46,037 nt of DNA from a virus (IMGVR_UViG_3300020583_000021:1-46037); one strand, 5' to 3'; counted from the first letter of the stretch, positions 8,021 to 45,571 are shown. Made by a program: numbers and translations. Notes: generated by a model not told the origin, from the letters alone.

Positions 8021-8124
8021 TTGTGCAAATCCCCGCCCTTCATGAACCGCTTCCCCGTTGCGCCGCTGCACGAGTCAACGCGCCCGGATGCCGGATAGCT
8101 TTCTTGATGAAGTTCGCCATGAAG

Positions 8125-11333: not shown

Positions 11334-11647
11334 CGCCTGCCGCTCCTCACAATCGACCGCCGCTTCCGTTTCGTGGGCCGTGTGTGCTGCTCTTTGAAAA
11401 TCCCGTGCTGCATGAACACTTCCTGGCGCAACTGCCGCATATCGTCAGAGTTCATCACCTTCGCCCCGGCGGCGAGAACCTCCTCGAGTGATTCCTCCGG
11501 CACATAACCTAAACGCCCGGTCGGAGCTAGCACGCGCACGCCTTGTGGGGCCTCCCGAATCAAAAAGGGCACGTTCCATTGCGGTCGGGAACCGGCTTGC
11601 TGTACGCGAACCATAAAATCTTCGAGAATTTGATCTGCCGCGCTCAT
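11330..11647 (-). CDS. Hypothetical protein following terminase, 105 aa
   Basis: The ATG at 11647 overlaps the terminase stop (ATGA), implying coupled translation. The N-terminal part is a small alpha/beta fold (VRVLAPTGRLGYVPEE) and the C-terminal 25 residues are strongly basic (RPTKRKRRSIVRSGRR), which could contact DNA. No family is recognised. Confidence 0.75.
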   Translation of the reverse strand: MSAADQILEDFMVRVQQAGSRPQWNVPFLIREAPQGVRVLAPTGRLGYVPEESLEEVLAAGAKVMNSDDMRQLRQEVFMQHGIFKEQHTRPTKRKRRSIVRSGRR

Positions 11648-13665: not shown

Positions 13666-14268
13666 TTAAGCGCCGAGAACCCCAAACGCGGTACGTGCTT
13701 TTTGTGCCGACGCCGAGCGTTTCGGGTTGAGATAAGGCTTCAGTGAATTTAAGTCTTTGTGTCCGCTTTCGTTTTGCAATGCCTCAAGGTCCATGAAATC
13801 ACGTAGATAGTCGATCCCTGAGCTTTTCATCGTGTGCGGATGACAAGCCACGGCAGGCAATCCTGCGTCTACTCCGAACCGTTTAATCCAACGTTGAAAG
13901 GTCCGCGCCGTCACCGGAAACAACTTTTGATTCCCCTGCCTTTTTGAACACAAATTAAGCATCGCCTGGCGCACATTCAACAGTGGATTTTCGTGTTCGT
14001 CTAATTCACCGTCGATTGGATTCGACCCCTTCAACCGGGTCACCTTAAAACGATTTCCCACTACATTCGCGGCCGTAAGTCCGGGATAGTAAACCCGCTT
14101 TTTCTCTTTCGTTTTCTTATTCTTCCAGCTACACCAGCCGCCGACGACTTCGTGTGCTCGCATGTGGAACCGGAAAGCCAGATAGCACATCAGCCATGCC
14201 TCCACGCTATGCTTCATCGCTTCTGCCAAAATCTTCAACACCTCATCCGGCTCCAAAAAATGCGGCAT
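13666..14268 (-). CDS. Short tyrosine recombinase (integrase-like), 200 aa
   Basis: The catalytic domain of the phage integrase/XerD family is visible: Arg37 (FHMRAHEV), a beta-hairpin Lys near 80, His145-x-x-Lys148 where HxxR is usual, His170 (SGHKDL) and Tyr179 (PYLNPK). The N-terminal arm/core-binding domain of a standard ~300-residue integrase is missing, and an in-frame stop lies immediately upstream of the ATG, so this is a natural short form or a truncated gene. A 9-bp inverted repeat with a 7-bp centre lies 26 bases upstream (14294-14318). It may integrate DNA, resolve dimers, or be inactive. Confidence 0.75.
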   Translation of the reverse strand: MPHFLEPDEVLKILAEAMKHSVEAWLMCYLAFRFHMRAHEVVGGWCSWKNKKTKEKKRVYYPGLTAANVVGNRFKVTRLKGSNPIDGELDEHENPLLNVRQAMLNLCSKRQGNQKLFPVTARTFQRWIKRFGVDAGLPAVACHPHTMKSSGIDYLRDFMDLEALQNESGHKDLNSLKPYLNPKRSASAQKARTAFGVLGA

Positions 14269-14293
14269 TCAATATCGCAAAACAATTAACTTT

Positions 14294-14318
14294 TGTCCGA
14301 GTCCTGCAAACTCGGACA
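14294..14318. repeat. Inverted repeat beside recombinase, possible core site
   Basis: Perfect 9-bp arms TGTCCGAGT and ACTCGGACA flank a 7-bp centre (CCTGCAA). Inverted arms around a 6-8 bp overlap are the geometry of tyrosine-recombinase core sites, and the recombinase gene starts 26 bases away. No T run follows on either strand, so a terminator is less likely. Confidence 0.5.
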
Positions 14319-14328
14319 CACACATCAC

Positions 14329-14751
14329 CTAGCAGCCAAAGGTCTCCAGCAGATTCATGCGGTAGCAGCGCAACGGCGTCTCCAGCTTCGACAGCTCCTT
14401 GAATCCATAGCGCTCGGCAAATTTGCAGGTCGATTCATCGTGACCAAGAAAGTAAACATCCCCAACATCGCGGCGATAGGCTTCCTCGATCGTATGCTCC
14501 GCCAAGCGCACAATCGCTTGCCCCGTCTCTGCGAGGGAAAGACCTGGCCGAAAAATCAAGTGCTCGATCATCAGCGGTTGCGCGATCGGGGAATAACCTT
14601 GTGTTCCGTTCTTGTTGAAAGCTTCGAGAGTAAAGGTCGATGCGTGCTTGAACACGTCGAGATCGATCAGTTCGCCGTCGCGCGTGGTCCGGGCAAATTC
14701 CAGAAGCTGTTCTGGCACATCGCAACGTGTTTTTACCAGCAGCCGTTCCAT
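14329..14751 (-). CDS. GNAT-like acetyltransferase-fold protein, 140 aa
   Basis: The C-terminal third (DVYFLGHDESTCKFAERYGF near 98-117) follows the pattern of the last GNAT motif, with a residue-rich turn, a helix with Ala, and Tyr-Gly-Phe before the final strand. The N-terminal half contains strands compatible with the fold. Such proteins occur in phage head regions, often without a known substrate. The start ATG 14751 lies three bases after the upstream stop. The fold assignment is moderate and the activity unknown. Confidence 0.6.
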   Translation of the reverse strand: MERLLVKTRCDVPEQLLEFARTTRDGELIDLDVFKHASTFTLEAFNKNGTQGYSPIAQPLMIEHLIFRPGLSLAETGQAIVRLAEHTIEEAYRRDVGDVYFLGHDESTCKFAERYGFKELSKLETPLRCYRMNLLETFGC

Positions 14752-14754
14752 CTC

Positions 14755-15168
14755 TTACTCGACCGTCACCGTCACCGGATTCGTGGGCGCCGTCGTACAC
14801 AATACCCGCAAGAACTTCGCCCGGATGATCAGCTCGACTCGTCCCACTCCGCTCGCGTTCAAATTCGCAGCAGCCACAGTGCCAGGTGTGCCGCCATTGA
14901 AATTCTCCGAGGTATATTCGGCGGCCGCGTCGAAGTCCGCCGTCTGGATCTGGAACATGCCCGCCCCTAAACCCAAGGGGCAGGAGAAGCGCACCGAGAC
15001 CGGGGTGAGTTGGCCAGTTGGGGTCGTGGGCATCAAAGCCACAGCAAGAGAGGCTGCGTTGGCGGGAGGGGTTTCGGCCGAGAGCAGAACCGCTGGCACA
15101 ATTTGATCGCGGGTGACCGAAACCAGAGGAGAATTGGAAGTGATTTGGGAACCGTAAGCTGGGGACAT
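14755..15168 (-). CDS. Putative virion surface or structural protein, 137 aa
   Basis: This protein is Thr/Ala/Pro/Val-rich and strand-forming with few charges (SPAYGSQITSNSPLVSVTRD at the start, TTAPTNPVTVTVE at the end), like small capsid decoration or fibre proteins. There is no signal peptide. The start ATG 15168 has only a weak ribosome site. Position in the packaging cluster fits a structural role, which is inferred. Confidence 0.65.
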   Translation of the reverse strand: MSPAYGSQITSNSPLVSVTRDQIVPAVLLSAETPPANAASLAVALMPTTPTGQLTPVSVRFSCPLGLGAGMFQIQTADFDAAAEYTSENFNGGTPGTVAAANLNASGVGRVELIIRAKFLRVLCTTAPTNPVTVTVE

Positions 15169-15179
15169 AGATTAGGAGC

Positions 15180-15533
15180 TCATTTCAGGAACTTCAGCAG
15201 CGCCAGCACCCCGGCCACCACGGTTAAGAATGCGTTCACCACAGCCAATGCCTTGACTGCCAAAGTCATCCATCCCAAGGTTTGCTGTATTTGGTCTTTT
15301 TCCCGGATTAATCCTTGAGTGACGTGATGGCAGTGGCTCAGACTTTTGACGATGCCGGCCGCCGATTCTCGAGGGAATTCCCTCGGTTGGGTTCGATCCC
15401 CGACGTAGTAAGGGCGCTTTTCCATCGCTAGTACCGCAATGATTTGCAAGGCGTCAGGCTTGAGATCCTCTCCACCAGGAGCCGAAAGAATCTCGGTGAT
15501 AAGAATGCGGTCGCGGATGGAGCCGAAGAACAC
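15180..15533 (-). CDS. C-terminally membrane-anchored protein, 117 aa
   Basis: A GTG start at 15533 (VFFGSIRDR) is preferred because the longer frame to 15653 overlaps the preceding gene by 110 bases and its start reads as noise. The last 32 residues form one long hydrophobic helix (TLAVKALAVVNAFLTVVAGV...) ending FLK, so the protein is a tail-anchored membrane protein with the N terminus inside. It could serve in lysis (holin-like) or membrane association. It lacks other motifs. Confidence 0.6.
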   Translation of the reverse strand: MFFGSIRDRILITEILSAPGGEDLKPDALQIIAVLAMEKRPYYVGDRTQPREFPRESAAGIVKSLSHCHHVTQGLIREKDQIQQTLGWMTLAVKALAVVNAFLTVVAGVLALLKFLK

Positions 15534-15543
15534 ATCAGGCGCT

Positions 15544-20765: not shown

Positions 20766-21461
20766 TCACACTGCGAACTTCTCGATCTTTCCTTTACTGA
20801 GTTTTTTGTGCAGGTAGGCGGAGTTCTGCATGTTTTGCGCCAGCCGTACATCGTCCTCCGCTAACTCGCTGGGCGACAGCTCTCCCTTCGCCAACTGGAA
20901 CAACATGTTCCGACCATCCTGAACGCCACCAAGGTAGGCCATCTCCGCGAAGCGCGCGGCGTGGTCCCAGAGTTTTCGCAGAAGGTCGAGAACGGTGCTA
21001 TCGATCCTGCCAAAGTATCCAAGATCGCCTGAATTGCCATCACTCGATGGGTATTTCGCCGGTCGAGCATAGTGCTCGTCTGGTTTCTTGGGAAAACGCA
21101 CGTCTGGCTTAAAGAACAAAGGCTGTGCCCCTTCTCGCTCCTTGTGGGGAACATCCTTCCAATCCAACAGCGCCGCACACATTCGCTTGCCAAGTGCCGC
21201 AAATGTTATTGCCAACGCCTGTCGCGTCTCACTGAAACCCTCCGGCTGATCACGAGGACCACATCCATAGAATTGTGGATACCAATGCCAAGCGCCTTTG
21301 ATGATCACGGTCGCAAACTCTTTCTTCTGCGAAAACTCTGCCGTGTGCTGGGCCCAGCTATCGAGCACATGACGACAATTACTACAAACTTCATCTACCT
21401 TGCGATACTGATCAGTAGCCCCACAGCCAGGACAAGGTTTCTTGATTCGCCTTACACTCAT
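20766..21461 (-). CDS. Zinc-ribbon hypothetical protein, 231 aa
   Basis: The ATG overlaps the stop of the small membrane protein (ATGA). The N terminus is a zinc ribbon (CPGCGATDQ ... VCSNCRHVL, residues 9-32), followed by a mixed domain with aromatic patches (GAWHWYPQFYGCG) and a C-terminal helical part. The ribbon suggests nucleic-acid or protein contact. It lies in the early minus operon. Confidence 0.72.
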   Translation of the reverse strand: MSVRRIKKPCPGCGATDQYRKVDEVCSNCRHVLDSWAQHTAEFSQKKEFATVIIKGAWHWYPQFYGCGPRDQPEGFSETRQALAITFAALGKRMCAALLDWKDVPHKEREGAQPLFFKPDVRFPKKPDEHYARPAKYPSSDGNSGDLGYFGRIDSTVLDLLRKLWDHAARFAEMAYLGGVQDGRNMLFQLAKGELSPSELAEDDVRLAQNMQNSAYLHKKLSKGKIEKFAV

Positions 21462-21589
21462 TTAACCTTTCTCCCTTCCTGATACCCTCGCCAGTAACCC
21501 CGTCCGTAAATCCAATCGCACAGCAACAGGAGTAACAGCAGGCCAGCCAGTACGAATGCGGCGATCCCGAGAAGGATGTTCCAGTTCAT
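21458..21589 (-). CDS. Small single-pass membrane protein, 43 aa
   Basis: A perfect hydrophobic helix follows a short head (NWNILLGIAAFVLAGLLLLL, residues 2-21) and then a basic tail (YGRGYWRGYQEGRKVK). Both ends use ATGA overlaps with neighbours, which strongly supports the gene although it is short. Holin, superinfection-exclusion or membrane-tether roles are possible; none is proven. Confidence 0.72.
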   Translation of the reverse strand: MNWNILLGIAAFVLAGLLLLLLLCDWIYGRGYWRGYQEGRKVK

Positions 21590-21864
21590 ACGTCAGCCTT
21601 CTGCTCGGCAGTTAATTTAGCCAGCTTGCGCGCTGCCTTTCTGGAGTTCGTCTCACGCTCGCAGAAGGCGGCAATGTCGCGAAGGCATTCCTGCTCAAAG
21701 ATGCAGGCGTCGAAAGTGAAAAATGAGTAGCGCCGCCATGGGGAGTACCAGCGGACTTGGCCGAGTAAAACTCCGTAACGGGTGAGCACGCGCCAGTCGT
21801 AAGTGACTTTATTTTTCATCCGCGCCGGCAGCCGCTCGAATTCAACCCATGGCCGTGTACTCAT
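21586..21864 (-). CDS. Hypothetical conserved-looking protein, 92 aa
   Basis: ATGA overlaps at both ends. The core is aromatic and strand-rich (YDWRVLTRYGVLLGQVRWYS, WRRYSFFTFDACIF), then a helix with a Lys-rich tail. It reads as a small folded phage protein of the early operon. I cannot name a family. Confidence 0.7.
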   Translation of the reverse strand: MSTRPWVEFERLPARMKNKVTYDWRVLTRYGVLLGQVRWYSPWRRYSFFTFDACIFEQECLRDIAAFCERETNSRKAARKLAKLTAEQKADV

Positions 21865-22247
21865 TCGCTTCTTGGACCTTTCCCGTCCGCGCAGTCCGCC
21901 CCCTCTTCTTCGTCTGCGCGGACGGCCCCGCCCTCTGAGGGAAGCGAATCAGAGGATGGAGAAACTTGAGATCCCACCGCGTCAGAATTGGCGATGGGCG
22001 CCGGCATCATTGCTGGCCGCAAACTCTCTGCTCGTCTGGCCGCGTTCGCGAGCTGGCGCAAGCACCTGTCGAAATCTGTGATGTCGCGCAAGAGATGCAC
22101 CGTATTGTCATCGCTGTCGTGGACTTCGATTTCCCGCACATGGTCCGCCGTGAAGCGCCAGATCAAGCGGGCGTAAAGCAAGACTTCTTCCGCTGGTCGG
22201 TCGGGGCGGAGGGCGCGAAGGTCGGGGATCAAGGAGGAGGGGATCAT
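21861..22247 (-). CDS. Hypothetical protein with acidic tail, 128 aa
   Basis: ATG 22247 overlaps the previous stop (ATGA), so the longer frame to 22298 is not used. The N-terminal 85 residues look folded (FTADHVREIEVHDSDDNTVH); the C-terminal 40 are disordered and acidic (ADEEEGADCADG). The function is unknown. Confidence 0.68.
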   Translation of the reverse strand: MIPSSLIPDLRALRPDRPAEEVLLYARLIWRFTADHVREIEVHDSDDNTVHLLRDITDFDRCLRQLANAARRAESLRPAMMPAPIANSDAVGSQVSPSSDSLPSEGGAVRADEEEGADCADGKGPRSE

Positions 22248-22417
22248 GCAGCCTTCTCGATTTTGAACGGAGTCAGGAGCCCACACTTGGGACAACACAC
22301 GATGACGTAAAGATCGTGGATTTCCACCGTGCTGCGAGAGGGAAGACGAGACTCACAGTAAAAACAGTTCAGTGGAATCGGAACGCTGAAATCGGCCAAT
22401 GTTTTCGGTTTACTCAT
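22244..22417 (-). CDS. Zinc-ribbon protein, 57 aa
   Basis: ATG 22417 has GGAGG five bases upstream. Four cysteines in two knuckles (CFYC near 18-21 and CCPKC near 41-45) with strands between give a classic zinc ribbon filling nearly the whole protein. It may regulate host or phage transcription, as small phage ribbons often do; this is inference. Confidence 0.7.
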   Translation of the reverse strand: MSKPKTLADFSVPIPLNCFYCESRLPSRSTVEIHDLYVIVCCPKCGLLTPFKIEKAA

Positions 22418-22466
22418 GGTGCCTCCATCTCCGGCGCAAAGCGCAAGCTCCAAGACCAGCGCCGCG

Positions 22467-22772
22467 TTAAAATAACTCCTGTTGCGTTTCCAGCGCCTTC
22501 TGTGGACTAATTACCCGTGCGGCAGCGTCCGGGCCACGCCGATGCTTCCAACTCTCCCACGCGGCCTGATGCGCGCGGCAAAGGTGCTTATTCGGGGCTA
22601 CCTCAACAGCGCAGCGCTTACAAACGGATTCGTCACAGGTCCCGGATTTCCTGTCTGATACTTTCCAGTCGCAGAGCAGATCGGCGGCGCGTCCGCATTT
22701 ACAAAATCGTGTGCGGGTATGTCCGCCGCAGAGAATCACGACACCATCGCCCATCGGCATCTTGATGCACAT
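22467..22772 (-). CDS. Cys/His-rich zinc protein, 101 aa
   Basis: ATG 22772 follows AGGAGTGAGG. Ten cysteines and several histidines (CGGHTRTRFCKCG, SVCKRCAVEV, HLCRAHQAAW) suggest two or three zinc sites. The C-terminal 25 residues are polar. It is likely a DNA or protein adaptor; no family is recognised. Confidence 0.7.
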   Translation of the reverse strand: MCIKMPMGDGVVILCGGHTRTRFCKCGRAADLLCDWKVSDRKSGTCDESVCKRCAVEVAPNKHLCRAHQAAWESWKHRRGPDAAARVISPQKALETQQELF

Positions 22773-25134: not shown

Positions 25135-26684
25135 GCGACCGTCCTCACTTCCTTCACGTTCACCTTCATGCCGGGAACCGTCTTATAGCCTTCCTTTCCG
25201 TCCTTGCCTTCTTTCGACAGGAAGCCCAATTCTGCAAGCTTGGCTATTTCGCGGTAAAAATTAGCTTGACCGGGATTGTGGCCGCGGCGCTCCAGCTCAG
25301 TCAGGCCGGCATATGCTTTCTTGGTTTGGTCAAAGAAACCTTCGGAAACCAACAGCGCTATTTTTCCGAACAAAGTGTCTGTATTCGCCTCAATGACATA
25401 TATCCGCTTAGTCAGATCGATCACTGGTAGCTTCACGTCGAGGGACATTGCGACTTCGCCAGAGCTGGAAACTGGCGCGGCCTGCGGAGAATCTGCGCGG
25501 GGAGTCGGCAGGGAATTACCCTTGGTGTTTGAACCGCGCTCCAATTGCGCAATCCGCTCCTCTAGCCTGCGAATCGTCTGTGTCGCCTCTTCCCATGCCG
25601 CTTTGTAATCCATGTTTTCCTCTTCCTGCCGGGTATTTTCCGGCCGATACTGTTTCACCGCGTCCAGCAACTCCCGCTCTGCCGCCGCACCGGGCAGCGA
25701 AAGCGCAATGTGCCGAGCTACCGCTGCGGGCATCCATGCGGGCAAGACATAGACGTGCTTCATCACGTCGCCAAACGACACATAGAATTGGCCGCGCCGC
25801 AACCGCATCACATCTTCCGGTTTCGGCTTCGCTTTCTTGGGCAACGCCATTTGCGCGAGAGTGTGTTCGACTTCGTTGATCTCGCGCTGCACTCCGAGAA
25901 TCCAGACTCCAACCTGTTTCAGCAGCGGCTTATCGACGCCCGCGATGTCCTGCGAATCGAGCCACATCAAATTGCCCGCGCCCAGCCCTTTGCGAACTAG
26001 GGATACCGCAGCCACTTTTACTGGCGTGTTTTTGCCCTGCGGAATAAACTCCCACGCCTCCGGGATGACACTGATCACGCCGCGCATCTTGTAAACTTTC
26101 TCGAACGAAGACGCGATGCAGAGCGATTGCATCTCCAGCGAATACTCGGTGAGGTCCATCACGTTCAGTCCGGGCAATAAATCGAGTCCAGCACTATCCC
26201 GCGACATGCGGACCTTGAGCCGCTTCAGCTCTGGCAGGATGAGTTTGAAATATTCCGACAGTTGCAAATACATTCCCGCCGCATACCCACTCGCCGCCTT
26301 CGCGTGCTTGCCGTCGCCGTGCAGCGCGCGCTCCGTATTAGCCGCCACTTCTTCGAGCGATCCGGCGCCCTTGCAAACTCGGATGATCCACTGGCGCTCA
26401 TACTTCATGCGCTCCTGCATCATGGCTTCGAGAATCGATTCGACGAACTGCCAGTCGGCCCGGTCGCGGAAAAATGGCGGGATGCGATGCGCCCCAGCGA
26501 ATGCGCCCTCGGCTTGCTTGGTTGCAAAGGCAAGCGCAACTTTTCCATCGGCCCGGGAGATCATCCCTTCGAGCGTCGTAGTCTTGCCGCTGGCCTGTGT
26601 CTGACCGCAAACCACGGTGTGCGCGTAGGGAACCCGCACTTCCTCGCCAGTCCCGATTTCGTAGCCCAGCAGAATTTCGCTCAC
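25131..26684 (-). CDS. HerA/FtsK-like ATPase with C-terminal coiled coil, 517 aa
   Basis: This is a hexameric-type DNA-translocating ATPase by pattern. Walker A GQTQASGKT at 27-35, right after a short beta N terminus, and a Walker B-like stretch NLMWLDSQD near 235-243, followed by a sensor-like VWILGVQRE. Residues about 350-400 form a coiled coil (WEEATQTIRRLEERIAQLER), then a Pro/Ser linker, and a C-terminal segment (430-517) reading like a winged helix (AYAGLTELERRGHNPGQANF). The GTG start overlaps the previous stop. It may pump or load DNA during replication or recombination. No NurA-like partner is seen. Confidence 0.72.
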   Translation of the reverse strand: MSEILLGYEIGTGEEVRVPYAHTVVCGQTQASGKTTTLEGMISRADGKVALAFATKQAEGAFAGAHRIPPFFRDRADWQFVESILEAMMQERMKYERQWIIRVCKGAGSLEEVAANTERALHGDGKHAKAASGYAAGMYLQLSEYFKLILPELKRLKVRMSRDSAGLDLLPGLNVMDLTEYSLEMQSLCIASSFEKVYKMRGVISVIPEAWEFIPQGKNTPVKVAAVSLVRKGLGAGNLMWLDSQDIAGVDKPLLKQVGVWILGVQREINEVEHTLAQMALPKKAKPKPEDVMRLRRGQFYVSFGDVMKHVYVLPAWMPAAVARHIALSLPGAAAERELLDAVKQYRPENTRQEEENMDYKAAWEEATQTIRRLEERIAQLERGSNTKGNSLPTPRADSPQAAPVSSSGEVAMSLDVKLPVIDLTKRIYVIEANTDTLFGKIALLVSEGFFDQTKKAYAGLTELERRGHNPGQANFYREIAKLAELGFLSKEGKDGKEGYKTVPGMKVNVKEVRTVA

Positions 26685-27654: not shown

Positions 27655-28185
27655 TTACGCGACTTTACTGGCCGCGGTCCCGCCTCCTTCGCGCTCCGCT
27701 GCCTTCTTTGGAGGTAGCATGAGCGAATCGACATCTCCGCCGCGCCAGAGATCGTTTTCGTCGTAGAGCGCGCTGTAGAGCGATCCGCACTGCGCCTTGC
27801 GCCGGGCTACAATCGCGGGCCAGACTTTATCCGGATGCAGCCCGAGCGTATCGATGGTCGCCCGCACATGAGGGGAGCAACAGCTGCAATCCTCGCGCGC
27901 CGCATAGAGCACGGTCAGGTAGGCGATGTGAACGTCATCGCGCAGATGGGGATTCGATTCGTTCCGTTTCGATTGCTCTAACCGTGCGAGGACATGCTCG
28001 CTCCAACGCGAGAGACGCCTGTGGCTGGCCATCCGGCTTTCCTGGGGGGAAGCGCCTTGGACTGCCACCGCAAAAGGCTGAATGGTATAAGCGAGCGGAG
28101 AGTTGCCGTCAAGCGCCAGAGTTGGACTCAACAGCAATAGCAGAGTGAGGGCCGCGAGAGCGCGGCGGAAGTTATGCAGCCGCAT
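27655..28185 (-). CDS. Hypothetical protein with signal-like N terminus, 176 aa
   Basis: ATG 28185 has GGGAGG five bases upstream. The first 25 residues look like a signal peptide (RRALAALTLLLLLSPTLA). The rest is helical with a CSCC motif (near 99-102), ending Gly/Ala-rich. An early operon gene with an export signal is unusual; an internal Met near residue 52 could give a cytoplasmic form. The function is unknown. Confidence 0.62.
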   Translation of the reverse strand: MRLHNFRRALAALTLLLLLSPTLALDGNSPLAYTIQPFAVAVQGASPQESRMASHRRLSRWSEHVLARLEQSKRNESNPHLRDDVHIAYLTVLYAAREDCSCCSPHVRATIDTLGLHPDKVWPAIVARRKAQCGSLYSALYDENDLWRGGDVDSLMLPPKKAAEREGGGTAASKVA

Positions 28186-30077: not shown

Positions 30078-30455
30078 ATGGGACGCCCGCGACAATCGCA
30101 AGTTTGCTGTTCATGGAAGTGCCGACGCGAGATTCAGCCGCACGAAAAAGGCATCGCAATCACGATGTTCGGCCAAACCCTCGGCATGGGGAAAATGCGA
30201 ACTTCCAAATCCGAGCGCCTCTATCTCTGTCCGCAATGCGCCGCCCATCTCGCGACCGATACCGTTCCAGCAAAAAGTGCCCCTGTCGATCTCGCGTTTT
30301 TCAAGGTCGCGCTCGATTTAGCCGGGAAAGATAGCTGCGTCTCCGAGGCGATGTTCGAGCAGCTTCAGCAACGGCGGCAAGATATTCTCTATCCGCTGGC
30401 ACTGGAAGAGGGAGAGATACTTTCCCCGGTGAAGCGCCTGCAAGCCGCGAGCTAG
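30078..30455 (+). CDS. Plus-strand zinc-finger protein, probable regulator, 125 aa
   Basis: ATG 30078 has GGGAGGAG seven bases upstream. The N terminus has VCCSWKC (near 9-15) and later LCPQC (near 50-54), a likely zinc site; a helical domain follows. The tandem palindromes just before it suggest self-control or control of the divergent DUF2829 genes. It stands against the direction of the surrounding late genes. No family is recognised. Confidence 0.7.
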   Translation: MGRPRQSQVCCSWKCRREIQPHEKGIAITMFGQTLGMGKMRTSKSERLYLCPQCAAHLATDTVPAKSAPVDLAFFKVALDLAGKDSCVSEAMFEQLQQRRQDILYPLALEEGEILSPVKRLQAAS

Positions 30456-31006
30456 AACCGAAAGTTCGGCCCAGCCGCCAGGCTCGGAACCCAATGCGGC
30501 GAATCCGCACCCGCGTATCCGGGAAGGTAGTTCGCCTGCGCTTCAAACGCCATGTTGAAATTCTGCGTTCCCCCCGGTGCATAGCGCAGAAACAATCCCA
30601 CGCGCCCGCCCCACTCATTTTTCACCGCCGCTTTCACCACACCTAAACTGCTGGTAAAGCCCGCCTGAAAATTTCCTCCGGTCAGCGCCGTGTGATTTTG
30701 CAGATACTTGGCCACAGCAGGGAACAGGCGCTCATAGCGGCCCCCGATGAAGGTGGATTGTCCAATCAGGGTGGTCTCGCCGAGGATGTTGTTCGTGGTG
30801 AAGGCAAATAAGGCGTCGCTCTCCGCGCCGGAAATCGAGCTACCCAGGTTCGGCAAGGTGATGGGCGAGAGGTTGAAGTTGAAAGTAGTAGTCGAGAATG
30901 CGTTGACTGGGGCCGTGGGTGCCGTCTGCGCCTGAATGGATCCAATCATCGTTAGTGCGAGGCAGAGGAATGCGAGAGCAAGAGTTTGCTTCATTGTTTT
31001 CTTCAT
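30452..31006 (-). CDS. Exported outer-membrane-like protein, 184 aa
   Basis: A clear signal peptide (LALAFLCLALTMIGSIQAQ, cleavage near 26-28), then beta-strand-rich sequence (NFNLSPITL, GGRVGLFLRYAP) and a C terminus ending in Phe (AGPNFRF), as in outer-membrane beta barrels. It is about as long as an eight-stranded barrel. A phage-borne surface protein could block receptors or alter the host surface. The late-region position leaves a tail role possible too. Confidence 0.65.
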   Translation of the reverse strand: MKKTMKQTLALAFLCLALTMIGSIQAQTAPTAPVNAFSTTTFNFNLSPITLPNLGSSISGAESDALFAFTTNNILGETTLIGQSTFIGGRYERLFPAVAKYLQNHTALTGGNFQAGFTSSLGVVKAAVKNEWGGRVGLFLRYAPGGTQNFNMAFEAQANYLPGYAGADSPHWVPSLAAGPNFRF

Positions 31007-31030
31007 CGTTAAATCTCCTTGGAAAGTTTT

Positions 31031-31288
31031 TCAGAGTAAGTCTTCAGGCTTGATGCCCTTAATTACGAGAACCGGGCTGCCCCGTAAGGCCATGCGGGCG
31101 GTTTGCAATCCGAGTTTGTAGCCAGCCTGAAAGTCGGGCGTGATTCCGCTTGCACCAACCATCTGTGCGCGGGCGTCTCCGAGTGAATTCAGTTCCTTTG
31201 CCTGACTGGCGAGCATCTGCGAATCGGCACTTTTCAGGCTGTCGATCGCGGATTCGATGAACATGACTGCGGGTGAGAGCCAGCTCAT
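31031..31288 (-). CDS. Hypothetical helical protein, 85 aa
   Basis: ATG 31288 has AAGGA about seven bases upstream. Amphipathic helices (MFIESAIDSLKSADSQMLAS, YKLGLQTARMALRG) may bind membranes or proteins. It lies between the outer-membrane-like gene and the two-helix membrane protein, in a possible lysis/host-interaction cluster. No family is recognised. Confidence 0.65.
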   Translation of the reverse strand: MSWLSPAVMFIESAIDSLKSADSQMLASQAKELNSLGDARAQMVGASGITPDFQAGYKLGLQTARMALRGSPVLVIKGIKPEDLL

Positions 31289-31300
31289 AAGGTGTCCTTG

Positions 31301-31306
31301 TAGAAT
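31301..31306 (+). promoter_or_regulatory. -10-like TAGAAT before 31313
   Basis: TAGAAT lies six bases before ATG 31313; no good -35 box is seen at the usual distance. The same word occurs before 31822 and 45278. Confidence 0.5.
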
Positions 31307-31312
31307 CAGTAA

Positions 31313-31504
31313 ATGGAAATCAGGGGTTCGCTACAATACTGCGCGGAATGTCGAGGTGTTCTCTACGTGCTTGTTCAATATCACGATCATTGGTACGCGC
31401 GCTGCCGTGGGTGTAACACTGACTACGAGTTATTTCCGGGCGAGATTCAGTTGATTAAGAAGGGCGCTCCTTCGTCTCCGTTTGAGCCAATCCCTGCGAA
31501 CTGA
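31313..31504 (+). CDS. Plus-strand zinc-ribbon protein, 63 aa
   Basis: CAEC (near 10-13) and CRGC (near 31-34) with aromatic strands between (VLVQYHDHWYA) form a small ribbon. There is no ribosome site; a TAGAAT box six bases upstream suggests leaderless expression. Its end overlaps the convergent membrane protein gene. It lies inside the late minus region, moron-like. Confidence 0.65.
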   Translation: MEIRGSLQYCAECRGVLYVLVQYHDHWYARCRGCNTDYELFPGEIQLIKKGAPSSPFEPIPAN

Positions 31505-31769
31505 CGGCCTGCCCCGCTTGCAGCTCCGCCTCAACCTGCTGGCCGAACGGCGAGTGCAGGAAGTAAAAGAACACCGCCACTCCGCCGACGTGCAACCCCG
31601 CGTAGAAATATTCCAGAATGCAGTGCTCGGTTAAGCAGCCGTGATCGGCCACATACATGTGGCGGATGACGCCCGAAGATGAGGCCGCGACCAAGACAAT
31701 GCAGGTCTTCAACCAGGCGGGCAGGGAATTCCAGTAGGCGAGGAGCTTCTGGGGCAGCTTTTGTAACAT
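31455..31769 (-). CDS. Two-helix membrane protein, holin candidate, 104 aa
   Basis: ATG 31769 has AAGGA nine bases upstream; longer frames to 32036 are not used. Two hydrophobic helices are visible (LKTCIVLVAASSSGVI near 20-38 and LHVGGVAVFFYFLH near 60-75), with a polar Gln/Glu tail. Size and topology fit a small holin. No endolysin is adjacent, so lysis is only a candidate role. Confidence 0.68.
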   Translation of the reverse strand: MLQKLPQKLLAYWNSLPAWLKTCIVLVAASSSGVIRHMYVADHGCLTEHCILEYFYAGLHVGGVAVFFYFLHSPFGQQVEAELQAGQAVSSQGLAQTETKERPS

Positions 31770-31806
31770 GAGAGATTTTCCTTGTGGGTGAGTTAGTAAG
31801 TGGGAG

Positions 31807-31812
31807 TAGAAT
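31807..31812 (+). promoter_or_regulatory. -10-like TAGAAT before 31822
   Basis: TAGAAT nine bases before ATG 31822, with TTGTGG about 19 bases further upstream. It is a weak but repeated pattern. Confidence 0.45.
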
Positions 31813-31821
31813 GCGTCGGGT

Positions 31822-32187
31822 ATGGATCCTAAAACGATGAAAGCTACGGCAATAATTGCGGTTGCCTGGTTTTTTTGCGGCTGGATGGCAGGACGATACT
31901 TTTTCCCCAAGCCTTGCTCATTGCCGATTACATTCAACGGCTCAAAAGCGTGCCGTCTCACATGTCCCCAAGATGCCGACGTGTATACGATTCTGAGCGG
32001 CTCGGACGCGCCCGGAGTTTTTATTCCCACCAGCACAAAGCGTGATCTTCCGTGGCCAGCCTATCTCATCGGAGCAGTCGGTCTCGCGGTCGTGGGGAAT
32101 TACATCTACCAGATTTTCTTCGCGAAGCGCGGCCCCGAACCGGAAGAGCACGATGAGAATGATGACAAATTCGGCGGATGGACCTAA
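31822..32187 (+). CDS. Plus-strand two-pass membrane protein, 121 aa
   Basis: Helices near 8-27 (TAIIAVAWFFCGWMAGRYFF) and 80-100 (AYLIGAVGLAVVGNYIYQIF), a polar loop with Cys residues, and an acidic tail (EPEEHDENDDK). ATG 31822 lacks a ribosome site. It lies opposite the late genes and could be a superinfection-exclusion or lysis protein. No family is recognised. Confidence 0.68.
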   Translation: MDPKTMKATAIIAVAWFFCGWMAGRYFFPKPCSLPITFNGSKACRLTCPQDADVYTILSGSDAPGVFIPTSTKRDLPWPAYLIGAVGLAVVGNYIYQIFFAKRGPEPEEHDENDDKFGGWT

Positions 32188-32191
32188 ACCT

Positions 32192-34429
32192 TTATTGCAG
32201 CCTCTCCCAAACACAGCCGCCCGTAGTCGTCGATAACCCCACATCCTGAAGGACGATCACTGGGAAATTCCCCGAGGAAGCCGTCGGCATCGTAAGCGTG
32301 GCCGCGCCGTCGATGGTTTCCGTGGCATACGCTCCCGATGCCTGACTCTGCGTTTTAATCACCCATGGACTTGTGGTGTTTGAGTTCTTGATGTGAACCA
32401 GTGAACCGGTCAGCCCTTGGCAGGTTTCGAGAGTGAAGGCCGGAGAAGTCGCGCTCCCTGCCAGCGTCACCCATCCGTCGGTATCGAGCTGGGTCGCAAC
32501 CGAGGCCACGCCGAACACAGTGCCCGCACCCAACCCGGAATTGACATTGAGGCAGGTAATTGTGGTTGCTGTCGAGGTCAGGACATGGCAGATCGTGTCC
32601 GCCGAGGTCGTGTTGTAGCCCGCCGGCGTCACTCCCGTGATGTAGACATCGGCACCGACGATGAAGGTGGCCGGAGTCGCGCTGAAGGTGAACGTGGCCG
32701 TATTCCCGGATTCCGACGCGGCAGTGATGGTAGCGGCCGCAGGTGCCGTGGTTGTGTAGGTGCTGCCGCTCGTGAAGTCATTCGCCCCAAGAATTTCCCG
32801 GTTCAGCGATCGTTGCCAGATCGCTCCAACGATGTTTTGCCCAACCGCCGTAGGATGCAAGCCGTCCGCGAAGAACGTTAAATTGGTCGAGGCTCCGTCC
32901 GCGCCCATCGAGGGAGACGCCCCGATGTCGGCGAACGCATCGACCATCGTCGGCCAGTACTGCCGCATCAATTGATTGTTTGTGTTTTTCCCGGCGTCAT
33001 GGCTGGTCGCGTCCATGTTGGAGCCCAGCACCGTTTTGAATCCGCAGCCCCGATACATCCGGCTGGCCTGCATCATCGAATTGATGAATCCTGCAGAGCC
33101 GAGCGTGTTCGCGCCAAACCATTCGTGAATCACGGAGAACCCATTCGGCGCAACAAATTGGCAGGTGTTGATTTGCTCAAGGCTGTAAGAACCAGACGAT
33201 GGTCCGTTGATGAAAGGATTCGGAGGAGCCCCCGCGCCGCTTTGCGAAATCAGTATCGGACTCCACGCTCCACTTGTGTTGCTCGGAGCCATGTAACCGA
33301 AGTAGCCGTTGGATGCTGCGTCCTCGGAGTCGCCGCGGCTTACCAAAATATTCCCGGCGAGGTTGGTGCCGAGTCCAAACGGAAGCTGGTTCGCGAGATT
33401 CGCAGGAGGTTGGGCGGTGATGTTCACGCCCCGGTTGTTCATGATCTGCTGCACCGCGTTGTAGTTCTGGATGATCTGCGCTGCTGTGAGTTCGGTGCTG
33501 TAAGCCAGCGCGTAAAAGATCGTGCCGGTCCACCATGAATTATTGCCGTTGATAAAAAACGGGCGTCCCCCAAACTGATACACCCCGGCAGTCTGAGTTC
33601 CCTGCGAGTGGCCGTTGGTGGGAGTAGCCAGCGGACCGAATCCGTTGATGTAAATTTGATCCGTGGAATTATCGAGCGCCCAGGTCAACATTCCAGTCCC
33701 AGTAAAGCCGCTAAGCGTGCTGACTTGTGAAGCCCCGCCGTACGTTCGTATGCCGGGTTCCAGCGGTGAAACCGAGGTATTATTTGGGAAGGCAGTTCCA
33801 CCGACAAATCCTTCCACAAACCCCACTCCAGCGGAATTCGCTGCTGTGCCATTCCCTACGATCACGAACGGATAAGTCGCAGATGAGGTCCCGGTTGCCT
33901 GGATCTGATGCGTCATGTAAATCTGCCACGTCTTCACACCGTTCAAAGCTGAAGGCAGAGTTACGCATTGCGCATTGGCCGCGTTGAAGACAAGTCCGCC
34001 GCCCGCGTTCACCGCATTCCAGGTTGGCGCGGCCGTCGAGGCGCACAGCGTCCCATTATTACCGTTCCCTGAAACATCAGTGAGAACGGTGCCGGAGCCT
34101 TCGTTAAAATCGTATTGTGCAACAAGGCCAGATTGCACAATCTGCGAGGTCACCGCTCCGGTCGGAAGTCCGCCGAGCGCAGCCCATACTGTCCCGTTGT
34201 ACTGGCACGCGACGGTATTTGATCCTCCTCCTGTGGTGCAATCCGTTGATGTCGTTCCATCGGTGACGCTGGCGATGGTTCCTGCTTTGGTTCCACAGCT
34301 TGAGGAGAGTTTTGAGACGGTCGTGATGCAGGAGCTGGACGAGCCGCCGAAGTTATTCTGGTTCGCCTGGGCGTGCGCCTGCAGAGCGAACAGGGAAAAT
34401 CCCGCAAGGAGCAAAAGAAGTTTTCGCAT
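32192..34429 (-). CDS. Exported LamG plus SGNH hydrolase tail-type protein, 745 aa
   Basis: Signal peptide at 1-20 (LLLLLAGFSLFALQAHA). Residues about 100-325 form a LamG/concanavalin-like domain (LVAQYDFNEGSGTVLTDVSG ... GNNGTL). Residues about 355-545 have SGNH hydrolase blocks: GDS with Ser368, GAN near 439-441, and DGLH with Asp522 and His525. The C-terminal 200 residues are Thr/Ser/Ala-rich beta sequence. It may remove acyl groups from host surface sugars during adsorption. ATG 34429 is chosen; the much longer frame to 35227 runs through the preceding gene. Confidence 0.75.
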   Translation of the reverse strand: MRKLLLLLAGFSLFALQAHAQANQNNFGGSSSSCITTVSKLSSSCGTKAGTIASVTDGTTSTDCTTGGGSNTVACQYNGTVWAALGGLPTGAVTSQIVQSGLVAQYDFNEGSGTVLTDVSGNGNNGTLCASTAAPTWNAVNAGGGLVFNAANAQCVTLPSALNGVKTWQIYMTHQIQATGTSSATYPFVIVGNGTAANSAGVGFVEGFVGGTAFPNNTSVSPLEPGIRTYGGASQVSTLSGFTGTGMLTWALDNSTDQIYINGFGPLATPTNGHSQGTQTAGVYQFGGRPFFINGNNSWWTGTIFYALAYSTELTAAQIIQNYNAVQQIMNNRGVNITAQPPANLANQLPFGLGTNLAGNILVSRGDSEDAASNGYFGYMAPSNTSGAWSPILISQSGAGAPPNPFINGPSSGSYSLEQINTCQFVAPNGFSVIHEWFGANTLGSAGFINSMMQASRMYRGCGFKTVLGSNMDATSHDAGKNTNNQLMRQYWPTMVDAFADIGASPSMGADGASTNLTFFADGLHPTAVGQNIVGAIWQRSLNREILGANDFTSGSTYTTTAPAAATITAASESGNTATFTFSATPATFIVGADVYITGVTPAGYNTTSADTICHVLTSTATTITCLNVNSGLGAGTVFGVASVATQLDTDGWVTLAGSATSPAFTLETCQGLTGSLVHIKNSNTTSPWVIKTQSQASGAYATETIDGAATLTMPTASSGNFPVIVLQDVGLSTTTGGCVWERLQ

Positions 34430-34449
34430 GATAGTGAGTTCTCGAATTT

Positions 34450-35205
34450 CTAGGGAGTGCAGGGCGGGTGAATCGCGGGCGTGGTGCCGGTTAAAGTACC
34501 GTTCAAAACGTTGCCGCTCAAGTCCGGCTCCGGTGAAGTTACGCCCCACAATGGAAAATAGCCAGCAGGTTGAGGAAAGCCCATGCGCCGCGCCGAAGCT
34601 CCCACCGGACAAACCGCAGCAAGCGCCTTCATCTGGCCGAGCGAGAGTGTCGTATTCCATACGGCAATTTCGGCGATGATCCCGGTTGCCGGATAAGACG
34701 TTCCCGGCGTCTGGTTGCCGATGGTGAAGTTGTGCTGCCCGGCAAAGATGGTTGCCCCATCCCAGCCCGTGCTGATATTGCAGAACGTCCCGCCATTGAC
34801 CAGCAACCCCGTGCTCGTGCCATTGATCGACCAGAGCACGACCTGATACCACTTGTTCGCGGTCGAGGCGCTCGCGCAGTTCGCGTAAGACTCTCCGGTC
34901 ACGGCTCCGCAGCAACCAACGCCGTACCCCAACTGATTCGCCGCCGCAATGCCCGAAGGCACGCCCAGACCGACCCAGAATTGCGATCCGCCTACCCCAT
35001 TGCTGAAGTGAGCCACCGCGGCCTGCGTTCCACTGCTCACGCTGGCCGGATACCACCAGAACGACACGGTTAAATTGCCGCCGCTGATGTCCAAAGCTGT
35101 GCCGATTCCGTTGGCGGTGATCTTGTCGGTCGATCCGTTGAAGGAGCGGCCGGCATGGAGCGGCAGAGCGAGGACAAGCGCGAGAAAGAAGGCGAGATGC
35201 TTCAT
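34450..35205 (-). CDS. Exported LamG-like protein, 251 aa
   Basis: ATGA overlap with the preceding gene. Signal peptide at 1-18 (MKHLAFFLALVLALPLHA). The mature part is one LamG-type jelly roll (FNGSTDKITANGIGTALDIS, LTVSFWWYP, NHTFTIGN-like strands) with many Cys, ending in DLSGNVLNGTL. It is probably a surface-binding or tail component acting with the SGNH protein. Confidence 0.7.
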   Translation of the reverse strand: MKHLAFFLALVLALPLHAGRSFNGSTDKITANGIGTALDISGGNLTVSFWWYPASVSSGTQAAVAHFSNGVGGSQFWVGLGVPSGIAAANQLGYGVGCCGAVTGESYANCASASTANKWYQVVLWSINGTSTGLLVNGGTFCNISTGWDGATIFAGQHNFTIGNQTPGTSYPATGIIAEIAVWNTTLSLGQMKALAAVCPVGASARRMGFPQPAGYFPLWGVTSPEPDLSGNVLNGTLTGTTPAIHPPCTP

Positions 35206-36527
35206 AACACAAAGTGCGGGTACACAAGCATGTTGGCGGTAGGCGCGGTGCCTGTCGTCGAGGTCAGAATTTTCACCACCAGAATCGATCCGTTCGAGAG
35301 CGTCGATTGCACGTTGAAAGTCAAAGTGACGCGGTTGTACGCGGTCGACGTCGTCGTAAAGGTTTGCGCCGCGGCACAAGTGAGCGAACCCGTGTTGATG
35401 GTTCCGGAATTGATGACTCCATCACAGGTTTGAAAGTTTGCGGTGTGGCCTGCGGTCCCGTCGTTCGCCGCGATGTCCAAGACGATGGTTGCGCCCGTCG
35501 CCGCTGTGGGAATATAAATCGTGCAGTTGATGTAAGGCGAACCTGTAAAACCGGTGCAGGTCGACGTCGACGCGCAGAATTGCCACAAAGCCGCGAAATA
35601 ATTGGTGAGCGAGGTAACGCTGTAGAACGTGAAGCCGCTCTCATCCGGGGTGCAGTTGTCGAGCGTGGGATTCCCGCCGCCCGATCCGCTGCTACCAGGT
35701 ACAAGTTCCGGCGCGAATTCATCGATCTGGTACGTTCCCGGAGAGGCATTCGTCGATAGCACTCTGCCGATAACATCGCCGCCCGAGGTAGGAAAGACTG
35801 TCGACCCGGTATCGAGGCAATTCCCGCCAGTGGTGCCGCTGCGCTGCACATAATCATTGACCGTGGTCGCATTCGAGAATACGCACTTCACCAGGCCCGA
35901 GCTTTGAATCGTCGCGTCTCCCGTTGTGCCCGCTCCCGCCGTCACGATTCCGACAAAACCTGTCGTATCGGTGGTGGACATGATGACAACAGTCGAGTTC
36001 GGCGACCCATTGAGCTTGGTGAGTGTGTTTAAGGTAGTCCCCGTCACCGCGTCGTTCGGCAAAACAAAGCTGGTATAAGCTGCGCCGGTCGATGGAACGT
36101 CCAAGGTCAGCGTGTACGGCCCGCTCGCAACTCCATTCACTGTGAGCGTGTAGGCATAGGTTCCGCTCACCGTGTAGACGCCCATGTTTCCAAAGTTGTC
36201 TCCGGTGGATTGACAGGTGGAGGAGCCTTGCAACACTACTTGCTGATTGGTCGGACACGGCGTGGTCGAGGCGAGCGTCGGATAGGTGTTCGCGTAATTG
36301 GTGCAAGGAATCGCGTTGGCCGGGTAGTTGCAGAAGTTCAGAATGGCGCCCGGTTGGGCAAACAGCGGAGATAGGCCAGTTCCCCCAGCGGCCACAGCCC
36401 CAGCCGAACCAGGCGCACCGAGGTCCCAGCGCACATTTTGCGAGTTGGCGTAGGTCGCCGCCAGAACCAGGGCGAAGGCAAACAGCAGGCGCGCCCAGAA
36501 GGGATGAGTGTCGAAAAAGCGGGTCAT
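35202..36527 (-). CDS. Exported Cys-rich fibre-like protein, 441 aa
   Basis: The N terminus has a hydrophobic leader after 11 residues (FWARLLFAFALVLAATYANS). The rest is Thr/Ser/Gly/Ala-rich beta sequence with many Cys pairs, no charge-rich helices and no catalytic motif, like tail fibres or adhesins. It follows the internal-virion-like genes, the expected place for fibres. Export of a virion fibre would be unusual. Confidence 0.68.
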   Translation of the reverse strand: MTRFFDTHPFWARLLFAFALVLAATYANSQNVRWDLGAPGSAGAVAAGGTGLSPLFAQPGAILNFCNYPANAIPCTNYANTYPTLASTTPCPTNQQVVLQGSSTCQSTGDNFGNMGVYTVSGTYAYTLTVNGVASGPYTLTLDVPSTGAAYTSFVLPNDAVTGTTLNTLTKLNGSPNSTVVIMSTTDTTGFVGIVTAGAGTTGDATIQSSGLVKCVFSNATTVNDYVQRSGTTGGNCLDTGSTVFPTSGGDVIGRVLSTNASPGTYQIDEFAPELVPGSSGSGGGNPTLDNCTPDESGFTFYSVTSLTNYFAALWQFCASTSTCTGFTGSPYINCTIYIPTAATGATIVLDIAANDGTAGHTANFQTCDGVINSGTINTGSLTCAAAQTFTTTSTAYNRVTLTFNVQSTLSNGSILVVKILTSTTGTAPTANMLVYPHFVL

Positions 36528-43036: not shown

Positions 43037-43288
43037 ATGATGGACCGGCGGAAATTCATCTCAACTCTGATCGGCGGAGTGGCTGCCAGTGCGGCGGTGC
43101 GGACGTTTCCGTTCCGGGTGTTCAGCTTTCCGAGTAAGATCGAAACCGGCGACTGGAAGGGAATCCACATCGACTCTTATCCAGGAATTCTGCAAACGCC
43201 TTATTACGGCAGAGGTTGTGCGATTACTCCCGAGATGATTCAGCGAGCCATCGCCAGAGAACAGGCGCGCAGACTTTTGGGAATCTAG
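43037..43288 (+). CDS. Plus-strand Tat-signal protein, 83 aa
   Basis: Starts with DRRKFISTLIGGVAASAAV, a near-textbook twin-arginine leader (RRKFI), followed by about 50 residues (WKGIHIDSYPGIL) that end in a helix. ATG 43037 lies immediately after the previous stop. It is the second Tat-like protein of the genome. The mature part matches nothing I know; it probably acts in the periplasm. Confidence 0.7.
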   Translation: MMDRRKFISTLIGGVAASAAVRTFPFRVFSFPSKIETGDWKGIHIDSYPGILQTPYYGRGCAITPEMIQRAIAREQARRLLGI

Positions 43289-44234: not shown

Positions 44235-45260
44235 TCAGGCGGAGTGGCGGCGGCGAAAACGGCTGCCCCACGGAATGCGGGAGTAGCTCGCCCGTTGCTG
44301 CAGCTTGGCGTAAGAATTCGTGATTTGCGAGATAGCAGCGTCTCCGGCGGCGTCGAAATTCGGACCAAGCAAGGAACCTCGCGGAGTGACGAAAATCGCT
44401 GCGGCATAATTCGCCAGAGGTTCGGCACAGCCCATGATGGGTACGGGGGTTGCAGCAAAGCTGGACGAAGGGGCAATGTCCGGAAGATAAGCGGCATAGC
44501 GCGATTTCACATCCATCGGCACAATCGAGCCACGGAAATAGATCGCATCTTCCCGCCAATCGAAGTAGCGGTTCCAGCTTCCCTTGGCCTTTGATCGCAG
44601 TCCGTCCGGCGCAGGGTGCATCGGCCGCAAAACGTTCAAGTTCGGATTCGTCGCAGTCGCCCCACTCACGCTCTGCCGCTCTTCCAAGCGCAAGGGAGAA
44701 ATAAAATCCGCTGGCAATGTCGGACATCCTGAAAGTGTCTCCGGAGTCCAGAACGTCACCCCGTCGAAAAATCCCGCCCAGTTGATGTATTGTTCGACCG
44801 CCGGATCAAGATTGGCGATGACTGGGAAGCCGATCATTAAAGTAGTGCTCTCTAAGCGCGGGTGGCCTTTGTCGGCAAGTTTTTTCTGTACCTTCCGGAA
44901 CGCCAGATTGATCGTAGGGACGACGTAGGCTTGCGAGTCGGCGAAGATGTCTCCGGTCGGAATGGTTAACTCGTAGGGCAGTCCGTTCGCGACCGCGGCC
45001 TGGTTCAGCAAGTTGGCCGTGGTCGGCGAAGTCACCATCGCAATTTCGTTGGCTACGCCGTTGATGACGATGGCCACCCCATTCATCAAAGCGGTAAAGG
45101 TATTCCCCGAGGCCCATGTGATTGTTAGTCCACCCGCGTTGACGTTGACCGTGCCGGAGTTGGCGGGCTGAATATTTTGGATGTAGTCCCCCAGATAGGT
45201 CCGCACCATTTGGGTAACGGTGGCAAGGGAATCGTAGGGAGCTGAAGGAGGAAGGGGCAC
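44235..45260 (-). CDS. Head-tail adaptor-like structural protein, 341 aa
   Basis: No signal peptide. The pattern near 230-300 (DAIYFRGSIVPMDVKSRYAA, MGCAEPLANYAAAIF) recurs, as far as I recall, in adaptor-type proteins of phage head-tail junctions. The N-terminal half is strand-rich. It follows the split zinc-ribbon gene and an opposed small gene. The role is inferred from pattern and position. Confidence 0.65.
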   Translation of the reverse strand: MPLPPSAPYDSLATVTQMVRTYLGDYIQNIQPANSGTVNVNAGGLTITWASGNTFTALMNGVAIVINGVANEIAMVTSPTTANLLNQAAVANGLPYELTIPTGDIFADSQAYVVPTINLAFRKVQKKLADKGHPRLESTTLMIGFPVIANLDPAVEQYINWAGFFDGVTFWTPETLSGCPTLPADFISPLRLEERQSVSGATATNPNLNVLRPMHPAPDGLRSKAKGSWNRYFDWREDAIYFRGSIVPMDVKSRYAAYLPDIAPSSSFAATPVPIMGCAEPLANYAAAIFVTPRGSLLGPNFDAAGDAAISQITNSYAKLQQRASYSRIPWGSRFRRRHSA

Positions 45261-45265
45261 GGGAT

Positions 45266-45271
45266 TAGAAT
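45266..45271 (+). promoter_or_regulatory. -10-like TAGAAT before 45278
   Basis: TAGAAT six bases before ATG 45278, in the divergent gap to the adaptor gene. The -35 region is weak. Confidence 0.5.
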
Positions 45272-45277
45272 TGAACG

Positions 45278-45571
45278 ATGCTGACAGCGAAGGATATTTA
45301 CGAGGGGCTTGTCGACCAGTTAAGCGGCGAAGGGTCTTGCCACTACATTGAGCAACAGCGAAGCGATAGCGATTTTACGAATGTGACCGTGGACGGGGCA
45401 ATCGACTGCAAGCAATTCGCGGAACACATACTCACGAAAATCCGGACTGACCCTGCCAACCTAGTCTTCGGAAGGCCCATCAACGAAATCTATAAGTTGA
45501 TTTTGGAAGACGACCGGCAAACCGAAGAGAAACAGCGAACCGTTAGTTGGTCGCCTCCTCCTCTTCCTTGA
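45278..45571 (+). CDS. Plus-strand hypothetical protein, 97 aa
   Basis: ATG 45278 lacks a ribosome site but follows TAGAAT by six bases. The protein has a helix-strand pattern (AKDIYEGLVDQLSGEG, FAEHILTKIRTDPANLV) and a Pro tail. It is inserted between two late minus genes and overlaps the end of the zinc-ribbon gene. No family is recognised. Confidence 0.65.
   Translation: MLTAKDIYEGLVDQLSGEGSCHYIEQQRSDSDFTNVTVDGAIDCKQFAEHILTKIRTDPANLVFGRPINEIYKLILEDDRQTEEKQRTVSWSPPPLP

Follow-up and report, generated by a model that had tools for sequence, protein, structure and literature searches.

The stretch analysed here (the window) is a 46,037-base virus record from IMG/VR (IMGVR_UViG_3300020583_000021) that represents a tailed phage from soil. 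Its gene order is podovirus-like, and the head, tail and cluster genes are all encoded on the minus strand, to which the window coordinates below refer unless a plus strand is indicated. The genes of a 441, a 251 and a 745 aa protein belong to the late module and come immediately after the tail/internal-protein genes on that strand; the gene of a 184 aa protein follows. A fifth gene, encoding a 570 aa protein, is located between the terminase and portal genes. All five proteins begin with a predicted signal peptide.

The 441 aa protein (35202-36527) consists of a signal peptide (residues 1-29; 36441-36527; MTRFFDTHPFWARLLFAFALVLAATYANS/Q, with the slash marking the predicted cleavage site, YANS/QNVRW), a conserved N-domain with cysteines (Cys) at 66, 75, 91 and 105, and a variable C-terminal part; the mature chain starts with QNVRWDLG and has 12 Cys. 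The gene of the 251 aa protein (34450-35205) overlaps the 441 aa gene by ATGA. It encodes a signal peptide (residues 1-18; 35152-35205; MKHLAFFLALVLALPLHA/G, LHA/GRS) and a LamG/concanavalin-A-like, lectin-like domain (Pfam PF13385, E=5e-12), with 6 mature Cys. The true start of the 745 aa protein (32192-34429) is an internal ATG at 34429, not the start of a 1011-aa open reading frame (ORF). Its signal peptide (residues 1-20; 34370-34429; MRKLLLLLAGFSLFALQAHA/Q, AHA/QAN) is followed by a Cys-containing N-domain, a LamG-like domain (approximately 101-335), an SGNH/GDSL esterase-like domain (approximately 345-543) and C-terminal beta domains; 12 Cys remain in the mature chain. Residues 101-543 share 31% identity with gp342 of the cultivated phage Tunturi_5 (E=1e-19), a 'tail fiber protein' with Pfam matches to LamG and GDSL. 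The SGNH blocks are found as GDS at 366, GAN at 439 and DGLHP at 522 (catalytic Ser, GxN and DxxH blocks); there is no direct Pfam GDSL match in the 745 aa protein, and the GDSL call is made via gp342.

The 570 aa protein (8376-10088) is preceded by a strong Shine-Dalgarno sequence (AGGAG) and comprises a signal peptide (residues 1-23; 10020-10088; MNFTRRIASIIAVCVLLACGAIA/Q, AIA/QSS), a conserved N-terminal beta domain and C-terminal beta domains, with 10 mature Cys. An AlphaFold2 model reached a mean confidence (pLDDT) of 61, with the N-domain alone being fair, and Foldseek returned weak matches to tailspike, depolymerase and lectin domains, including the KP34 depolymerase, the phi15 tailspike and a pre-neck appendage protein. 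The 184 aa protein (30452-31006; signal peptide 1-26, IQA/QTA) differs in kind from the other four, as it is barrel-like and its single Cys lies inside the leader, leaving none in the mature chain. Its C-terminus (SLAAGPNFRF) ends in Phe with alternating hydrophobic residues of the beta-signal type, so that it is probably an outer-membrane beta-barrel; no significant Pfam or PHROG match was obtained. The candidate domains for carbohydrate binding or degradation in the set are LamG in the 251 aa protein and the SGNH-like domain assigned to the 745 aa protein by homology to gp342. Across all signal peptide-bearing proteins considered below, the content resembling receptor-binding proteins further includes pectate lyase-like domains and a K1-lyase C-terminal domain (weak).

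Signal peptides were evaluated with a home-made rule-based scorer (cut-off 4.0). An earlier note on this DNA had claimed that the four late genes start with signal peptides and that the 570 aa protein resembles them. This observation is confirmed and strengthened: all five leaders scored 4.5-6.5, and none was scored as non-signal. In each of them, a basic n-region precedes a hydrophobic core, and the cleavage site has the small-x-small pattern, i.e. by these sequence rules the leaders are tripartite, cleavable and of the Sec/signal peptidase I type, with predicted cleavage typically after Ala or Gly and before Gln. Among 63 structural proteins (180 aa or longer) from T7, P22, crAss001, Tunturi_3 and Tunturi_4, not one passed the same cut-off. 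Reading of the C-termini MLVYPHFVL, CVWERLQ, IHPPCTP and FSIEPIN revealed no transmembrane stretch that could serve as a C-terminal membrane anchor.

The leaders are kept in relatives of both the 570 and the 441 aa protein. Approximately 21 distinct signal peptide-bearing homologs of the 570 aa protein were found, mostly with a Shine-Dalgarno sequence and a leader ending in Ala or Gly before Gln. Across nine such rows of the family alignment, identity is 28% in the leader columns versus 47% in mature residues 38-171. Similarly, leader and N-domain of the 441 aa protein are kept in seven relatives (contigs G002, G003, L035, L036, G005, G006 and G017). The mature N-domain is common to all of these homologs, while the parts behind it have been exchanged; close homologs retain the position of the signal peptide and the Gln at +1, with varying leader sequence. 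Both families are modular, with a conserved N-domain and a variable C-terminal end. Since the leaders are kept across two families and diverge while the mature start is conserved, they are not chance features.

Even cysteine numbers are favoured in proteins exported to an oxidising compartment (PMC7678975). The three cluster proteins described as Cys-rich in the earlier note contain 12 (441 aa), 6 (251 aa) and 12 (745 aa) mature Cys. The enrichment as such is mild, with 2.1 Cys per 100 aa in mature signal peptide-bearing proteins versus 1.1 in genes without signal peptide, and the remarkable feature is the even number and pairing of Cys rather than their richness. The analysis covered 57 signal peptide-bearing proteins encoded by the window, by its relatives and by two cultivated phages; mature Cys are present in 56 of these proteins. 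The mature count is even in 53 of the 56 (binomial p=4e-13). With one protein taken per sequence cluster, a mean of 22.7 out of 25 is even (chance of at least 22 out of 25 approximately 8e-5 in a simple binomial). Genes without signal peptide from the same genomes have even counts in 65 and odd counts in 85 cases (43 versus 48 among those with at least 4 Cys). The most Cys-rich member encountered is an 1824 aa signal peptide-bearing protein without Pfam match (contig G005, 27-5501, minus strand; also in L082), with 68 mature Cys, again an even number.

These counts bear on the possibility that the N-terminal hydrophobic segments have no role in export and instead belong to ordinary tail proteins assembled in the cytoplasm, where they would interact with membranes or mediate oligomerisation. 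Cleaved N-termini do exist in some virion proteins, such as P22 gp7, which is cut by the host protease OpdA, and the scaffold-like gene of the window phage has a conserved hydrophobic N-terminus as well. However, even parity appears only after the predicted leader is removed: the full-length, uncleaved chains are even in only 35 of the 56 proteins, and all 18 proteins with an odd number of Cys in the leader become even upon its removal. Furthermore, the leader sequence varies freely while the type of cleavage site and the mature start are kept, and Cys are gained and lost in pairs. We therefore consider this explanation very improbable. Six pairs of alignment columns in the 570 family gain and lose Cys together (Jaccard 0.92-1.0), among them C118-C133, C183-C186, C327-C339 and C472-C491; C239-C246 is weaker. 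These five pairs are the predicted disulfides of the 570 aa protein. A mere composition effect as the cause of the Cys pattern was rejected by the parity and pair tests.

Homologs without signal peptide provide a natural control. Full-length versions of the 570 aa protein that lack a leader were found in contigs L032 and L056-L064, which represent four distinct lineages. They begin at the mature domain, with a strong Shine-Dalgarno sequence and an in-frame stop just upstream, and contain only 1-2 Cys in approximately 505 residues. Contig G017 combines a homolog of this kind (2 Cys, without the Cys pairs) with a signal peptide-bearing homolog of the 441 aa protein that has 20 mature Cys. It is the leader of the individual protein, rather than the host, that Cys content follows. 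The family tree suggests, with weak support, that the signal peptide state of the 570 family changed one or two times. Taken together, even Cys parity, pairwise covariation, the loss of Cys in homologs without signal peptide and the conservation of leaders across divergent relatives strongly support predicted export and disulfide pairing outside the cytoplasm, with the behaviour of the Cys carrying the decisive weight.

The same trait is found in cultivated phages of Acidobacteriota. Tunturi 1-3 have podovirus morphology and Tunturi 5 is a myovirus; the paper describing them mentions neither signal peptides nor cysteines (PMC11924767). The jumbo myovirus Tunturi_5 encodes leaders on all of gp337-gp342, with 18 (gp337), 6 (gp338), 14 (gp341) and 12 (gp342) mature Cys; the part of gp341 behind the signal peptide matches a Streptomyces-phage tailspike (E=3e-3). 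Four large late proteins of the podovirus Tunturi_2, one of them a tail fiber and another pectate-lyase-like, likewise have leaders and contain 20, 10, 20 and 34 mature Cys, and a tail-fibre segment of Tunturi_1 is 99.7% identical to Tunturi_2. Leader and even Cys number in Tunturi_2 and Tunturi_5 occur on tail-fibre, pectate-lyase, GDSL and annotated virion genes, the annotations apparently being similarity-based. The trait is absent from the structural proteins of Tunturi_3, Tunturi_4, T7, P22 and crAss001, and the fibres of Tunturi_3 have no leader. A requirement for the trait by the host in every case was rejected, as Tunturi_2 (with signal peptides) and Tunturi_3 (without) both infect strain X5P2.

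Secreted proteins of bacteria commonly contain LamG and GDSL domains, and leaders and Cys could accordingly have been inherited with domains captured from such host proteins, remaining functionless in the phage. This is the least probable of the explanations considered, given that leaders have been retained by deeply diverged relatives, by different families and by phages as unrelated as a podovirus and a jumbo myovirus. Because of this wide persistence, and because the two Cys of a pair are retained or lost together, both features look selected.

The earlier note had taken export and disulfide bonding to indicate either a different mode of assembly or a secreted, infection-altering system. 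Parity, Cys covariation and leader conservation speak for export and disulfide bonding, whereas the sequence is compatible with both uses. On balance, we favour the reading that host-recognition proteins are exported by Sec, disulfide-paired and joined to virions at or after lysis, which we regard as somewhat probable. Based on domain content, modularity and position, the exported proteins are most likely receptor-binding or depolymerase proteins that would end up on the virion. No window gene without signal peptide looks receptor-binding, so that the signal peptide-bearing proteins are, by elimination, the best candidates for this function. The genes would form the host-recognition set of a podovirus-like phage, comprising LamG lectin-like, SGNH-esterase-like and modular beta-rich proteins as well as the 570 aa protein encoded beside the portal. 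Each protein would be made as a Sec pre-protein, exported across the inner membrane and cut by signal peptidase I, and all Cys of the mature chain would then be oxidised to disulfides in the periplasm, a step supported by the comparisons above. The folded proteins would wait in the periplasm and dock via their N-domains, for which the conserved N-domains of the 441 and 570 families are candidates, at or after lysis onto particles that are already filled with DNA and complete in other respects. The outcome would be virions with disulfide-hardened receptor-binding or depolymerase appendages. The tailspikes of P22 are also added late to otherwise complete particles. The 184 aa protein would be exported too and would probably act as an outer-membrane barrel at the surface of the infected cell.

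Alternatively, export and disulfide bonding could take place without the proteins ever joining the virion. The proteins would then be secreted enzymes, lectins or adhesins acting on the infected cell surface or the surrounding polysaccharide, for example by clearing slime for release and spread or by masking receptors against superinfection. The evidence for export and disulfides fits this explanation equally well, polysaccharide is the target of esterase- and pectate-lyase-like domains whether or not the proteins are attached to a virion, and the barrel-like 184 aa protein suits a surface-altering set; moreover, no route is described by which an exported pre-protein would return to a tail in the cytoplasm. 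On the other hand, each genome of the relatives inspected encodes several large modular signal peptide-bearing proteins, in most cases behind the tail genes, and nothing else in the window is an obvious receptor-binding protein. Receptor-binding proteins typically keep the N-domain and exchange the C-terminus, and one relative (L032) encodes its version without signal peptide at the same site, between terminase and portal. We consider a purely secreted role a possible but less probable explanation.

Several points weigh against the favoured reading. Virion membership of the exported proteins and assembly after lysis in the window phage are both inferred. The contrast in signal peptides and Cys within the 570 family, though strong in kind, amounts to few events, since the signal peptide state changed only one or two times. 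Three signal peptide-bearing proteins have an odd mature Cys count, the list itself was curated by the author using the home-made scorer, and the structure models are weak (pLDDT 61 for the 570 aa protein; 41, and thus uninformative, for the 441 aa protein).

The window proteins resemble tail fibres and tailspikes (P22 gp9, T7 gp17, Klebsiella capsule depolymerases) in being large, modular and beta-rich, in having, for the 251 and 745 aa proteins, predicted carbohydrate-binding or -degrading domains and in being encoded with tail genes. Unlike them, they carry signal peptides (found in none of the 63 structural proteins scored), while the known fibres and tailspikes fold in the reducing cytoplasm. 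The receptor-binding pIII of filamentous phages (Ff/M13) likewise has a Sec signal peptide and periplasmic disulfides, but it is anchored by a C-terminal helix in a particle extruded through the envelope; the window proteins lack this anchor, and the phage that encodes them is tailed and forms a capsid. Lom and Bor of lambda and Llp of T5 are Sec-exported phage products that act at the host surface. Among the window proteins, the 184 aa one is similar to a Lom-type barrel as regards its size and the pattern at its C-terminus; no family match was found. In contrast to these single small genes, the window set consists of large multi-domain proteins behind the tail module. Tunturi_2 and Tunturi_5 have the same leaders and even Cys numbers on annotated tail-fibre, pectin-lyase and virion genes; the window portal has no match in Tunturi_1/2 or Tunturi_5. 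To our knowledge, tail proteins of tailed phages are not known to fold with disulfides outside the cytoplasm, and searches of the open-access literature found no publication that describes tail fibres with signal peptides.

Morphogenesis of tailed phages is taught as wholly cytoplasmic. The present data point to a widespread, selected trait, in which tail-type proteins are exported and all their Cys are paired in disulfides. This trait spans uncultured soil phages and cultivated Acidobacteriota phages and has versions without signal peptide as its natural control. We see about even chances that virions are completed outside the cytoplasm in several unrelated tailed-phage lineages, whose receptor-binding and depolymerase appendages would be matured by the host Sec and disulfide machinery in the periplasm and attached to particles during or after lysis. 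This would add a second assembly compartment to Caudoviricetes, with disulfide-hardened fibres, and would suggest how such fibres gain stability in soil. Virion presence and timing of the exported proteins can be addressed in the existing laboratory phages Tunturi_2 and Tunturi_5, and a leader combined with even Cys number provides a simple rule for spotting such proteins in viral metagenomes.

The host of the window phage may be guessed to belong to Acidobacteriota, based on the gp342 match and the shared trait. An alignment of 11 portal sequences was too divergent for a genome scan. Scanning with a 5-sequence alignment yielded one portal relative, on a contig in a metagenome-assembled genome labelled Betaproteobacteria, which also encodes a 570 homolog with leader and 10 mature Cys. 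This label is not trusted for the host because a phage contig can be mis-binned.

The further head and tail genes of the window are the terminase (11644-13272; PHROGs E=2e-5), the portal (5263-7746), a scaffold-like gene (3882-5282), the coat (2406-3662) and the adaptor and tail genes, which span 45260-36550 when the record is treated as circular. Only the terminase and, weakly, the coat are backed by PHROGs; the remaining names are based on size and order. The portal has relatives with 40-67% identity in other uncultured contigs and no match among 50,697 deposited phage records. The 441, 251 and 570 aa proteins had no match in the phage collection, and PHROGs gave no useful match for the signal peptide-bearing proteins of the window and little for their relatives. 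Searches of viral contigs with the full 441 or 745 aa protein alone returned no match; relatives were found instead with alignments and the portal protein as queries. Inside the cluster, a small protein with two transmembrane segments (31455-31772), probably starting at an internal MLQKLPQ codon, is homologous to G002 45067-45357 and G003 7595-7837 and appears holin-like from its hydropathy.

The scaffold-like protein, encoded between portal and coat, begins with a hydrophobic segment that is conserved (MLRFLLNVWLLPIFGMMLAAGAIAD; FLFAGTMFFAAG in relatives) and is followed by an acidic Gly/Asp-rich stretch, with 0-2 Cys. Counterparts are located at G001 14162-15535, G002 21043-22479, G003 25142-26539 and G004 11464-12858; the hydrophobic N-terminus, which possibly indicates membrane-tethered head assembly, is missing in the scaffolds of L032 and G017. 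A small ORF with a twin-arginine-like N-terminus (MDRRKFISTLIGGVAASAAVRTFPFRVFSFPS) is found at 43037-43288 on the plus strand, opposite to the neighbouring genes, and is conserved in relatives (G003 21648-21923; G004 7927-8349). A second twin-arginine-like ORF (MNRRAFLASLGIGLPS) is located at 1116-1463. By motif, a tyrosine-recombinase-like protein is encoded near the terminase gene in both the window (13666-14268) and L090 (2036-2644), where it may serve lysogeny or genome resolution. The G003 record (44,516 bases) is probably a complete circular genome, since it has a terminal direct repeat of 110 bases. Outside the tail module, a 176 aa protein (27655-28185) has a signal peptide and a CSCC...C motif, with 4 mature Cys.

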